Source: a virus
Reading direction: 5' to 3' (one strand)
Length of the DNA stretch: 21,957 nt
Virus record (IMG/VR): IMGVR_UViG_3300005608_000026
Location: 1-21,957 of that record
Position numbers and translations under genes: made by a program. Shown piece by piece: positions 3,574-7,633 of the stretch. The stretch's first letter is position 1. Each line of letters opens with the position of its first letter. The notes below the pieces were generated by a model, which was not told the DNA's origin, made no database searches, and was given only the letters and a program-made list of their open reading frames with translations.

Positions 3574-5739
3574 ATGTACGTCTCCCACGAAATCAAGTCA
3601 CAACTGGCAAAACTCCTTGCGACTGAAGACCTGGTCGTTGAGCATCGTCAGATCGAGACCGCACAATTCAATGTTCACACTCGTGTCCTGACCCTCCCTG
3701 TATGGGATACGAGCAATGTTGTGTATGACATGCTCGTTGGTCATGAGGTTGGTCATGCCCTGTTTACTCCAGACAATGACTGGTTTCTGGAGCATGATAT
3801 TCCACCACAGTTTGTCAATGTGGTAGAAGACGCTCGCATTGAGAAGTTGATGAAGCGCAAGTATCCTGGACTTGCAAAGACATTTTTTGGTGGATACAAG
3901 GAAATGAATGAAAATGACTTCTTTGACCTGTCGGGTGAAGATGTCTCCTCCATGAATCTTGCAGATCGAGTTAACCTATACTTTAAGGTTGGAAACTTTG
4001 TTGATATCAACTTTGACGATCAAAAAGAAATGCCTCTCGTCCACACAATTGCTGAGTGTGAGACATTTGAAGATGTTCTAATTGCCGCAGAGACTCTTTA
4101 CAAGCACTGCAAGAAAGAGATTGATAATGATGACAGACCAGATGCTCCTATTCCCCCTCAGGAGAACTTTGAGTCTGAATCTTCTCAACAGAACTCTGAG
4201 ACTTTAGATTCTCAAGATTCTGAAAATAGTGATAGTGAGGATGAATCTCAAGATTCTATTGAGAACAATTCTCAAGTTACTCCCGGATCTAATGCTGGAG
4301 ATAATGATGAATTGGAAGTTACAACAGCGAACAATCTTGAAGAAAAACTCAAGGATCTGATTGACCAAAGGTCTGGTGACAGTGTCTATGCTGAAATCCC
4401 CAAACTAGATTCTCAAAACCTCATCGCTAAAAACTCTGACGTTCATGACGTAATTAACGAGTGGTTCACTCTTGTTCAAAGAACGTCTAATCAAAGAGCA
4501 AAATCTCATGGAATGGATGGGATTGATCTTTATAGTGTTGTTGACCAACTTTTCTATGACTTCAAGAAGTCTGCTCAGAAGGAAGTCAACTATTTGGTGA
4601 AGGAGTTTGAATGCAAGAAAGCAGCAGATTCCTATGCTCGTGCTTCTACCTCTCGCACTGGTGTTCTTGACACCGCTAAACTTCATACTTATAGATATAA
4701 TGAAGATCTCTTCAAGAAGGTTACGGTCCTTCCAGACGGTAAGAATCATGGGTTGATCTTTGTTCTTGATTGGTCTGGATCAATGTCTAACGTTCTTCGG
4801 GATACCTGCAAGCAACTATTCAACTTGATCTGGTTTTGTAAGAAAGTATCGATCCCTTTTGAGGTTTATGCATTCACTAATGAGTGGAAAAGATCTCATT
4901 ACAGCCACAAACTAGAAAAGTATGTTGATGCTGATTTGACTCCTTCATATAAAAAGAAAGAAGGTTTCTTGTCCATTGACGATTCATTTTCTATGATGAA
5001 TATTTTCACCAGTCAAGTTCCTGCAAAGGAGATTGAAAAACAGATGATCAATATTTGGAGAATTGCTTGTTACTATGGCAATGTATATGGTTCTCGCTAC
5101 TCTGTTCCTGAGCGTCTTAGTTTGTCTGGAACTCCCCTAAATGAAGCATTGGTTTCTCTTCATACAATTCTTCCAGACTTTCAGAAGACAAATAAACTTC
5201 AGAAAGTTCAGTGCATTGTTCTTACTGATGGTGAAGCAAATAGTCTTTCATATCATGTTACGGTTAAGAGGCCCTGGGAACCAGAACCATTTCTTGGAAC
5301 CCGTCATCTTTATCCGGGAGAGTCCTATGTCCGTGATCGCAAACTTGGAACAACCTATGCAATACAGGGTCAATATCGATGCTTCACTGATGTCATGCTT
5401 CGCAACTTGAAGGACAACTTCCCTAACGCAAACTTCATTGGAATTCGGGTTCTTGCTCCTCGCGATGCAAACTCATTCATTCGTAGTTACTGTGACTTTG
5501 GTGATGATGAGTTTGATCGTATTCAAAAAGATTGGAAGAAGTCTAGGAGCTTTAACATCAAATCTTCTGGATATGATGCTTACTTTGGAATGTCTTCTGC
5601 AACTCTTTCTCAGGAATCTGAGTTTGAAGTTGATGGTGGTGCAACCAAAGCAAAGATCAAATCTGCATTTGCTAAGTCTCTGAAGACCAAAAAACTAAAT
5701 AAAAAGGTATTAGGAGAATTTATTTCTTTGGTGGTATGA
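3574..5739 (+). CDS. cobT: CobT-like VWA-domain protein with HExxH peptidase-like motif
   Basis: A 721-aa protein. The N-terminal domain has H57-E-V-G-H61, a zinc metallopeptidase-type motif, followed by VNVVEDARIEKL with E85-D86, which could supply a further ligand. Residues about 197-239 are a low-complexity Ser/Asp/Glu/Gln linker. The C-terminal half is a von Willebrand A domain with a complete MIDAS: DWSGS (D399, S401, S403), T520 in SGTPLNE, and D552 in LTDGE. This layout matches CobT of aerobic cobaltochelatase and the cyanophage 'peptidase/CobT' proteins. In known systems CobT works with the AAA+ protein CobS and the chelatase CobN. CobS is encoded 0.8 kb downstream but no CobN is visible. 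It is coupled by ATGA to the next gene. Whether it cleaves proteins or helps metal insertion is unknown. Confidence 0.88.
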   Translation: MYVSHEIKSQLAKLLATEDLVVEHRQIETAQFNVHTRVLTLPVWDTSNVVYDMLVGHEVGHALFTPDNDWFLEHDIPPQFVNVVEDARIEKLMKRKYPGLAKTFFGGYKEMNENDFFDLSGEDVSSMNLADRVNLYFKVGNFVDINFDDQKEMPLVHTIAECETFEDVLIAAETLYKHCKKEIDNDDRPDAPIPPQENFESESSQQNSETLDSQDSENSDSEDESQDSIENNSQVTPGSNAGDNDELEVTTANNLEEKLKDLIDQRSGDSVYAEIPKLDSQNLIAKNSDVHDVINEWFTLVQRTSNQRAKSHGMDGIDLYSVVDQLFYDFKKSAQKEVNYLVKEFECKKAADSYARASTSRTGVLDTAKLHTYRYNEDLFKKVTVLPDGKNHGLIFVLDWSGSMSNVLRDTCKQLFNLIWFCKKVSIPFEVYAFTNEWKRSHYSHKLEKYVDADLTPSYKKKEGFLSIDDSFSMMNIFTSQVPAKEIEKQMINIWRIACYYGNVYGSRYSVPERLSLSGTPLNEALVSLHTILPDFQKTNKLQKVQCIVLTDGEANSLSYHVTVKRPWEPEPFLGTRHLYPGESYVRDRKLGTTYAIQGQYRCFTDVMLRNLKDNFPNANFIGIRVLAPRDANSFIRSYCDFGDDEFDRIQKDWKKSRSFNIKSSGYDAYFGMSSATLSQESEFEVDGGATKAKIKSAFAKSLKTKKLNKKVLGEFISLVV

Positions 5740-6296
5740 AGACATTTCAGCAATTTGTGGTAGAATGTAACTCTATTCAGGAAACTTCTTTGAATAGAGT
5801 TCGCTCTAAATCACAGAAGGGTGGCATGGCTATCCTTTCCGGCCAAAGAGGGAACAAGTCCTCCAAAGAGAATAAAGAGAGAAGTAAGAGAACTGAAAGA
5901 CGAATTCGTGGCGCTGGCCTTCCAGGTCCTACAAAAGTATCTGGAAGATATACAGAAAACCCAGGAACACCTCAAGAGAAGAAAGTTGGAGAGAAGTCTC
6001 ATGTAGTTTCTTCTGGTAAAATGGGTAAACGCAAGTTCAAAAAAACCATCGAAAAGTTGGGAACAGAACGTGGACTCAAGCACAAGAAGAATACAAAACC
6101 CGGATCGTCTAAAGATGATCAGGATTCAGTTCTGATTCAACGCAAATCAAAAGGATCTGCTACACTCAAAGGAACATCTAAGCAATCTTGGCCTGGTAAA
6201 GGAAAGAACGCAAAGGTTGGGAAAATGAGACCAGGTAGAACTGGTGAATTTGATACTAAAGTGAAAAACAAAACATTTACCTATGAAGAAAAGTAA
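5736..6296 (+). CDS. Basic protein with T4-like capsid-targeting N-terminus (candidate internal head protein)
   Basis: A 186-aa protein with 34 Lys and 14 Arg against 17 acidic residues, so about +31 net charge, and rich in Gly and Ser; probably disordered and able to bind DNA. The N-terminus MKTFQQFVVEC aligns without gaps with the capsid-targeting sequence of T4 internal proteins, MKTYQEFIAEA as I remember it. That includes E10, after which the T4 prohead protease gp21 cuts. A second site of the (I/L)xE form is I14-Q-E16. The body contains repeated K-G-K and S-K-G patterns. Its ATG overlaps the stop of the cobT-like gene in an ATGA. I infer a protein packaged in the capsid and clipped during maturation. 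It could instead be a non-virion basic protein with a chance N-terminal match. Confidence 0.8.
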   Translation: MKTFQQFVVECNSIQETSLNRVRSKSQKGGMAILSGQRGNKSSKENKERSKRTERRIRGAGLPGPTKVSGRYTENPGTPQEKKVGEKSHVVSSGKMGKRKFKKTIEKLGTERGLKHKKNTKPGSSKDDQDSVLIQRKSKGSATLKGTSKQSWPGKGKNAKVGKMRPGRTGEFDTKVKNKTFTYEEK

Positions 6297-6465
6297 GTTT
6301 CCCCTGCGACACATCGTTATTGAAGAGAAGAAAGAAGTATGGATTCGAACCGATAGCAGCATCACTGCTATGGGAGTCCCTGCAATGATGAAGCAGCACT
6401 TTCCTGGATATACTGGCAAGATTGCTTCAGAAGACTACTTCCAAGAACTTCTGAAATCACAATAA
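6283..6465 (+). CDS. 60-aa small protein of unknown function
   Basis: A 60-aa frame starting inside the last 14 nt of the basic-protein gene. The product begins MKKSKFPLRHIVIEEKKEVWIR, looks globular with alternating beta-like segments, and ends in QELLKSQ. No clear ribosome site precedes the ATG, so translation would depend on the upstream gene. It fills the space before the cobS promoter region and has no competing frame. I do not recognise a family. Confidence 0.65.
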   Translation: MKKSKFPLRHIVIEEKKEVWIRTDSSITAMGVPAMMKQHFPGYTGKIASEDYFQELLKSQ

Positions 6466-6532: not shown

Positions 6533-7633
6533 ATGACCTACTCCACAGAACTCATCCGCGACGGTCTTCACTCCACTTATGGAAACGCCATCACAAAGGC
6601 GAATATCGAAGCATGGATTGCAGACAGTGGCGTTTCCCTTTCCTATCAGACTGTTGCTAAGAAGTTGAAGCAGTATAAGTCTGGTCGAGGAACTTACAAT
6701 CTTGAAGTAACAAAAGAGACAGTCAAAGACCTGGAAGTATCTTACAATTCTCCTGCTGCTATTCCCTCTGTGGAACAAAACCTTATTCCCGATAAAGATG
6801 ATTCCTTCGTCAAGTTTGGTAACTTCACTGATATTAAAAAAATTATTTCTTCCCGTCTATTCTACCCAACGTTCATTACGGGCCTTTCGGGTAACGGTAA
6901 AACGTTCTCTGTCGAACAGGCGTGCGCCCAACTGGGTCGCGAACTTATTCGGGTGAATATTACGATTGAGACGGATGAAGATGACTTGGTGGGTGGTTTT
7001 AGGCTTGTCGATGGGAATACTGCATGGCACAATGGTCCCGTTATCGAAGCACTCGAACGCGGAGCAGTTCTCCTTCTGGACGAGATCGACCTGGCATCCA
7101 ACAAAATCCTCTGTCTTCAGTCCATTCTAGAAGGTAAGGGCGTCTTCCTCAAGAAGATCGGTAAGTGGATCAAACCCACTGATGGATTCCAAGTTATTGC
7201 CACGGCCAACACCAAGGGCAAGGGATCTGACGATGGTCGGTTCATTGGTACCAACGTTCTCAATGAAGCGTTCCTGGAGCGTTTTCCTGTGACCTTCGAG
7301 CAAGAATATCCCACTGTTTCTGTTGAGACCAAGATTCTCAACAAACTGTGTGGTGATGTCAACTTCTGCAAGCGCCTTGCTGACTGGGCAGACATCATCC
7401 GCAAAACCTTCTATGATGGTGGTATTGAGGAAATTATCAGCACCCGCCGTCTGGTTCACATTGTGAAGGCATACAGCATCTTCGGAGATAAGGCAAAGGC
7501 AATTCAAGTTTGTGTCAATCGTTTTGATGATGAGACCAAGCAAGCATTCCTGGAACTGTATGACAAGGTTGATGTTGACTTTGTGATGCCTTCTGAGAAT
7601 GAAGGTTCCATTGACACATTTAGTGCTGTTTGA
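6533..7633 (+). CDS. cobS: CobS-like AAA+ ATPase
   Basis: A 366-aa AAA+ ATPase. The Walker A loop is GLSGNGKT (residues 117-124), Walker B is LLLDEID with D183-E184, a sensor region lies in VIATANTKGKG, and the arginine region is NEAFLERFPVTFE. This is the cyanophage CobS type, related to the MoxR group that works with VWA partners; cobS is a well-known cyanophage core gene. An N-terminal extension of about 90 residues precedes the ATPase domain. The base composition is unlike the neighbours: bases 6901-7000 are 50% G+C, against 31% for bases 1301-1400 of gene 46. The cobT-like gene upstream is the obvious partner. An exact consensus promoter overlaps the last codons. Confidence 0.93.
   Translation: MTYSTELIRDGLHSTYGNAITKANIEAWIADSGVSLSYQTVAKKLKQYKSGRGTYNLEVTKETVKDLEVSYNSPAAIPSVEQNLIPDKDDSFVKFGNFTDIKKIISSRLFYPTFITGLSGNGKTFSVEQACAQLGRELIRVNITIETDEDDLVGGFRLVDGNTAWHNGPVIEALERGAVLLLDEIDLASNKILCLQSILEGKGVFLKKIGKWIKPTDGFQVIATANTKGKGSDDGRFIGTNVLNEAFLERFPVTFEQEYPTVSVETKILNKLCGDVNFCKRLADWADIIRKTFYDGGIEEIISTRRLVHIVKAYSIFGDKAKAIQVCVNRFDDETKQAFLELYDKVDVDFVMPSENEGSIDTFSAV

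Follow-up and report, generated by a model that had tools for sequence, protein, structure and literature searches.

A SAM-lyase-family protein with a T4-type capsid-targeting-like leader in T4-like cyanophages

In a 21,957-nucleotide stretch of viral DNA (IMG/VR record IMGVR_UViG_3300005608_000026, hereafter the window), a gene at positions 5736-6296 of the plus strand lies between a CobT-like and a CobS/MoxR-like gene, and its product begins like the internal head proteins of phage T4. The locus thereby raises the question of what such a leader would carry into the phage head. A sequence-only reading had proposed that the frame encodes a DNA-binding protein that is packaged, injected and active together with the product of the upstream gene. 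The frame is open, as that reading held, and encodes 186 aa; its translation, a match to PF23780 and its relatives in IMG/VR assign it to a putatively packaged protein of the SAM-lyase family.

The explanation that we consider probable, though well short of certain, is a T4-type internal head protein with a SAM-lyase-family domain as cargo, which would be packaged, injected, and deplete S-adenosylmethionine (SAM), blunting SAM-dependent host defences. The analysis shows the leader, a conserved processing-like site, a late-promoter motif, the family and fold, the SAM-contact residues and purifying selection; cleavage, injection, catalysis and the defence target are inferred.

The window protein has at least 450 relatives in IMG/VR. 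The homologue set used below comprises 205 unique proteins with both start and stop, drawn from IMG/VR and from searches with three divergent homologues. One tblastn scan of genome contigs with the profile found no bacterial relatives, and so offered no leaderless cellular ancestor for comparison; PADLOC returned no match to the protein. Purifying selection is strong across the protein, with a whole-protein dN/dS of about 0.08 at near-saturated synonymous sites.

A SAM-lyase-family body

A SAM-lyase-like domain of the ferredoxin/PII type spans residues 33-146 (5832-6173, plus strand), as judged from PF23780, the AF2 models and their structural agreement with T3 SAM lyase. Against PF23780, the S-adenosylmethionine lyase family, the window protein scores 34.6 bits (cut-off 28), a relative (L151) scores 60.1 bits over profile positions 2-124 of 133, and T3 SAM lyase itself scores 143 bits. 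All 36 of the diverse aligned relatives match the family at E <= 0.1 (best E 7.7e-22). DUF3293 is also weakly matched by 31 of these 36 members and adds no function.

The AF2 models were computed template-free as monomers and are of moderate confidence (pLDDT 64.6 for the window protein and 68.9 for a protein of another branch). The best Foldseek match of the window-protein model is T3 SAM lyase (E 1.2e-4). In structural comparison this model reaches Z 13.8 and 12.9 with two T3 SAM lyase entries (8bb1 and 7ock), 8.0 with the SAM lyase Svi3-3 and 6.8 with the next unrelated chain, and the corresponding values for the second model are 14.8, 14.3, 8.0 and then 6.4. A search of viral models with the SAM-lyase-like model also matched annotated SAM hydrolases. 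The same domain is contained in the models of two bigger phage proteins in BFVD, A0A0C5AMW7 (P-TIM40, 769 aa) and M4SKN3 (538 aa). At the sequence level, and leaving Pfam aside, the protein resembles characterised SAM lyases only weakly. The profile matches a single PDB sequence, Svi3-3 (6zm9), with G-x-Y, E and Q-E-S aligned in register but at an E of 1.8, which is not significant by itself; hhalign of the profile against T3 SAMase as a single sequence gave no significant result.

SAM lyases convert SAM to methylthioadenosine and homoserine lactone, and Svi3-3 is a trimer with its active site between subunits. Four residues of Svi3-3, Gly56, Tyr58, Glu69 and Gln104, contact SAM (PMC7877911). 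When the window protein is aligned to 6zm9, G70-R-Y72 (5943-5951, plus strand) corresponds to Gly56-x-Tyr58, E86 (5991-5993, plus strand) to the catalytic Glu69, and Q129-D-S (6120-6128, plus strand) to Gln104-Glu105-Ser106. G70, Y72, E86 and Q129 are all invariant in our alignment A1, and the chance that all four SAM-contact residues would fall among its 16 invariant columns is about 4e-5. The signature is intact in 204 of the 205 homologues, and one single-cell viral homologue has W in place of the signature tyrosine. On sequence and model grounds, the body is a member of the SAM-lyase family that has retained its SAM-contact residues.

The proposal of a cargo that is no more than a DNA-binding protein rested on the charge of the body, and a recount gives the same value (48 K+R minus 17 D+E, or +31). 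A generic DNA-binding protein, a reading from charge alone, was dropped once the PF23780 and fold matches appeared, since these matches, together with an intact signature for substrate binding, place the body in the SAM-lyase family. A related alternative is that the packaged and injected protein uses the SAM-lyase fold only as a scaffold and condenses or escorts DNA. This we regard as unlikely, although the charge is a genuine counterpoint to the enzyme reading: the body is unusually basic throughout the family (+15 to +40, median +28), of which an enzyme has no need, and the internal proteins of T4 have likewise been called basic (PMC9026906). By the same count, however, the T4 proteins carry a net charge of only +2 to +9, and four invariant SAM-contact residues are not required for DNA binding. 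DNA binding by the cyanophage protein is at most secondary.

The retained fold could also serve a different substrate. The fold, the catalytic Glu and the Gln are also found in SAM-AMP lyases, one of which is known to be encoded by a phage (PMC12255297), so that a packaged lyase of this superfamily might have SAM-AMP as its true substrate and disarm type III CRISPR signalling, not SAM-dependent restriction. The structural comparison makes this improbable, as the T3 SAM lyase match (Z 14.8) stands far above that of the SAM-AMP lyase 9gad (Z 5.9). It is very improbable that the packaged protein works chiefly as a non-catalytic inhibitor that binds host methionine adenosyltransferase and blocks it. 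T3 SAMase does inhibit the host synthase (PMC8406200), and in both of the top fold matches T3 SAM lyase is in complex with that synthase, but the catalytic residues of the cyanophage family are invariant.

The leader and its processing-like junction

Residues 1-16 (MKTFQQFVVECNSIQE; 5736-5783, plus strand) form a capsid-targeting-like leader that ends at E16 of a hydrophobic-x-E processing-like site, as judged from the T4 ipI/II/III leaders and from the composition of the homologues. The previously noted likeness to T4 holds when the sequence is taken from the T4 record: MKTFQQFVVEC aligns without gaps to MKTYQEFIAEA of ipII/ipIII, and the ipI N-terminus in that record is MKTFKEFTSTT. Nor is the leader peculiar to the window protein, for it is kept in 178 of the 205 unique homologues, about 27 being without its canonical form. 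Among the 178, position 4 is always F or Y, position 7 is F in 174 and Y in 4, position 8 is M, I, L or V in all but 3, and position 10 is E in 146. The dN/dS of the leader is about 0.04, with dS near saturation. Mutational work on T4 has assigned residues 4 and 7 to targeting and residues 8 and 10 to processing, and the propeptides of T4 internal proteins are 10 to 19 residues long (PMC9026906). The residues conserved in the cyanophage leader are those that matter in T4.

Cleavage had been placed at E10, with a second site at residues 14-16. Both V8-V9-E10 and I14-Q15-E16 are present, but the conserved site is E16 and not E10. A pattern of hydrophobic-x-E followed by S, T or G at the junction before the body is found in 194 of the 205 homologues, and the remaining homologues shown still have hydrophobic-x-E at the junction, with a variant next residue or context. 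Homologues without the MKTF start also keep the junction site, for example as YIDE/TSL or DLSE/TSL (the slash marks the junction). Because E16 is invariant in A1 and kept in variants that lack the MKTF start, it is the better candidate for the cut site, and cleavage mainly at E10 was dropped. The major capsid protein of phage S-CREM2 carries LTE56/A, consistent with a T4-like protease preference. From these sequence features, prohead processing of the window protein is probable. One homologue (L261, 3737-4498) lies in a frame that begins about 90 residues upstream and has an internal leader-like YRSFIDEG, which may reflect the choice of start codon or a gene fusion.

A prohead core or scaffold component that joins the core via the leader, with no role in the next host, would also account for such an N-terminus. 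T4 IPIII affects head assembly (PMC9026906), and the homologue in phage P-SSM2 lies near neck genes 13 and 14. We nonetheless hold this to be highly improbable: the distribution is patchy, with only 22 records of the phage collection matching the window protein, which argues against an essential head part, and the enzyme signature is retained.

Promoter motif and gene neighbourhood

A late-promoter-like motif, CTAAATA, occurs at 5695-5701 (plus strand), 41 nt upstream of the ATG and inside the end of the cobT-like gene. The cyanophage late promoter has been described as NATAAATA (PMC2984593), and the enrichment of CTAAATA upstream of S-CREM2 structural genes (16/27 vs 11/150) is in line with that description. 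Among 193 distinct upstream regions of homologues, 137 have [CA]TAAATA within 80 nt, mostly at 25-34 nt, as against 1 of 103 cobS, 0 of 85 clamp and 0 of 80 cobT genes at the same loci. In the P-SSM2-like branch the motif is found in 1 of 24, and the P-SSM2 gene lies near late structural genes. By these motif counts, the SAM-lyase-family gene has its own late promoter motif, unlike its cobT, cobS and clamp neighbours.

The upstream neighbour in the window encodes a CobT-like VWA/HExxH protein (3574-5739, plus strand; phrog_459, 'peptidase'), a context that is not conserved throughout the family. Its HEVGH and DWSGSMS (VWA) motifs are present as previously described, and the start codon of the SAM-lyase-family gene does overlap its stop in ATGA. 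Downstream lies a CobS/MoxR-like AAA ATPase (6533-7633, plus strand; phrog_249). Neither neighbour is needed for the explanation that we favour. Between the two genes, a 60-aa ORF at 6283-6465 starts within the 3' end of the SAM-lyase-family gene and is without a family match.

Joint action with the VWA/HExxH protein had been argued from the ATGA coupling, and a cobT-like gene is indeed upstream at 141 of 256 homologue loci (84 in the window branch and 57 in the P-TIM68 branch). Across the same 256 loci, however, none was found beside members of the P-SSM2-like or S-CREM2-like branches, and an ATG-TGA overlap with an open upstream gene occurs at only 40 of 242 testable loci. Since neither the cobT context nor the overlap is conserved, the coupling is not taken as evidence of a joint product, and with the separate late promoter motif also against it, a functional unit with the CobT-like protein was dropped as having next to no likelihood.

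Putative virion cargo, proposed mechanism and known systems

A search for the leader among cyanophage proteins bears on whether it marks virion cargo. With leader patterns chosen after seeing the data, and p-values to be read as indicative, 14 of 1,188 gene starts in five genomes match compared with 0 of 3,529 internal methionines (Fisher p = 3.9e-9), and the late promoter motif precedes 9 of the 14 leader-bearing genes compared with 198 of 1,174 others (p = 1.1e-4), 5 of the 9 being members of the window-protein family. For S-CREM2, virion proteins were taken from the mass spectrometry table of PMC10665884. When all 219 S-CREM2 proteins are ranked by similarity to the T4 IPIII leader, the least tuned of these comparisons, the top six include five that are virion-detected in that table (indicative p = 0.003, or 0.011 with gp6 excluded): gp6, which is the window homologue, gp13, the kinase gp14, gp136 and the cytidylyltransferase gp154. 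Under a stricter leader pattern, 4 of 4 matches are virion proteins by the same table. A rank test over all S-CREM2 virion proteins of that table is negative (Mann-Whitney p = 0.80): enrichment is confined to the highest ranks, which was to be expected given that shell and tail parts make up most of the virion proteins.

In S-CREM2, gp6 is present in purified virions with 19 unique peptides (PMC10665884). The earlier claim of a packaged protein accordingly stands in so far as this homologue is detected in virions by mass spectrometry and the leader is T4-like, but not in its description of the cargo as simply a DNA-binding protein. The S-CREM2 authors caution that abundant non-structural proteins may co-purify with virions (PMC10665884); the shared leader argues against such contamination. 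The S-SM1 cytidylyltransferase, a virion protein in an independent study (PMC3037559), begins MKKFSAFLNEA, and the kinase of S-CRM01, stated in PMC10665884 to occur in virions of that phage, begins MISFDQFLSEK.

We tentatively suggest, giving the idea slightly less than an even chance, that a tag for loading proteins into the head, M-K-x-F-x-x-F-[hydrophobic]-x-E, is in general use among T4-like cyanophages. The genes that bear it would often be under late promoters, and the tag would deliver a set of enzymes at DNA entry (SAM lyase, NMNAT-like cytidylyltransferase, protein kinase and Cas9-like HNH protein). Within this set, the SAM lyase would be the one directed against host defences, at work before the first phage gene is read. 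For several enzymes reported in association with cyanophage virions, it has not been explained how they get in or whether they are contaminants, and the leader would provide a sequence rule for finding such cargo. Our literature search found no paper on a cyanophage capsid-targeting sequence, and both terms occurred together only in a T4 review.

Leader-like sequences also occur in clusters. In S-CREM2, the gp6-gp15 region (L085, 3837-13331) encodes a series of virion-detected proteins, namely the SAM lyase, the Cas9-like HNH protein, gp13, the kinase gp14 and gp15, and their genes are interleaved with those of a Dam methylase and an EcoRI-like endonuclease. The HNH protein has an internal leader-like stretch, LRFASFMAEA, and gp15 starts with MNFSEFNES. 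The S-CRM01 region L319, 621-3797, mirrors this cluster with three adjacent leader-like starts, MNFSEFLEA, that of the kinase, and MKKLDQFLTE. On another contig (G003, L308-L314), leader-bearing hypothetical genes at 37104-38360 and 89159-89473 (418 and 104 aa) are candidates for virion cargo.

In the mechanism that we propose, the SAM-lyase gene would be transcribed late from its own late promoter, and the MKTFxxF leader would draw the protein into the prohead core, where the prohead protease would probably clip it after E16 (perhaps E10 too). The lyase domain would stay in the mature head, be ejected with the DNA into a new cyanobacterial host and cleave SAM before any phage gene expression. 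The loss of SAM would then starve type I/III restriction, BREX-like systems and host methylation. Phage SAM lyases are known to neutralise restriction-modification and BREX (PMC12255297, citing earlier work). A counterpoint is that some relatives lie near a phage adenine methylase gene (S-CREM2 and S-H34), whose product also needs SAM; an injected dose of lyase could act transiently before that methylase is made. In S-H34 (L321, 449-2448), as in S-CREM2, a single small gene separates the SAM-lyase gene from the methylase gene upstream of it, which places a SAM user beside a SAM destroyer.

The closest known counterpart is the 'SAM hydrolase' gp6 of S-CREM2 (WNL50925.1), which is 48% identical to the window protein over the shared part. 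It has the same type of leader (MKDFDSFLEEF) and the SAM-lyase signature, and it is the homologue found in purified virions (PMC10665884). Unlike the window protein, it has 414 aa with a long extra C-terminal part, and its gene belongs to a cluster of other virion-cargo genes, whereas the window gene lies between cobT-like and cobS-like genes. That a virion SAM hydrolase enters the host, as suggested there against restriction, has already been proposed for S-CREM2 by its authors, and the available part of their paper was found to make no mention of the leader (PMC10665884). The present analysis adds the leader and the conservation of its residues and junction, the late promoter, the retention of the catalytic signature, the fold, and the finding that the family extends over hundreds of phage contigs.

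Beyond S-CREM2, the SAM-AMP lyase of type III CRISPR (9gad) belongs to the same superfamily and has equivalents of the catalytic Glu and Gln, but it is a weaker structural match and acts on a different substrate. Svi3-3 (6zm9) shares with the window protein the fold and the Gly, Tyr, Glu and Gln that hold SAM. T3 SAM lyase (gene 0.3; 8bb1, 7ock) shares both PF23780 and the fold; it has no leader, and its gene is the first to be expressed once infection has begun. The cyanophage protein, by contrast, is strongly basic, is expressed late and seems to be packaged. T4 IPI, IPII and IPIII resemble the window protein in their N-terminal capsid-targeting sequence, with key residues at 4, 7, 8 and 10, and in the processing site, but they are not SAM lyases, and no likeness beyond the leader was noted. 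T4 IPI is an injected anti-restriction protein. The T3 enzyme must be made post-infection, by which time the phage DNA lies exposed. If the proposal is true, a SAM lyase loaded beforehand would act at once, joining the injected inhibitor of the T4 IPI strategy to the SAM depletion of the T3 strategy. The combination is one of T4-type packaging with a T3-type SAM lyase.
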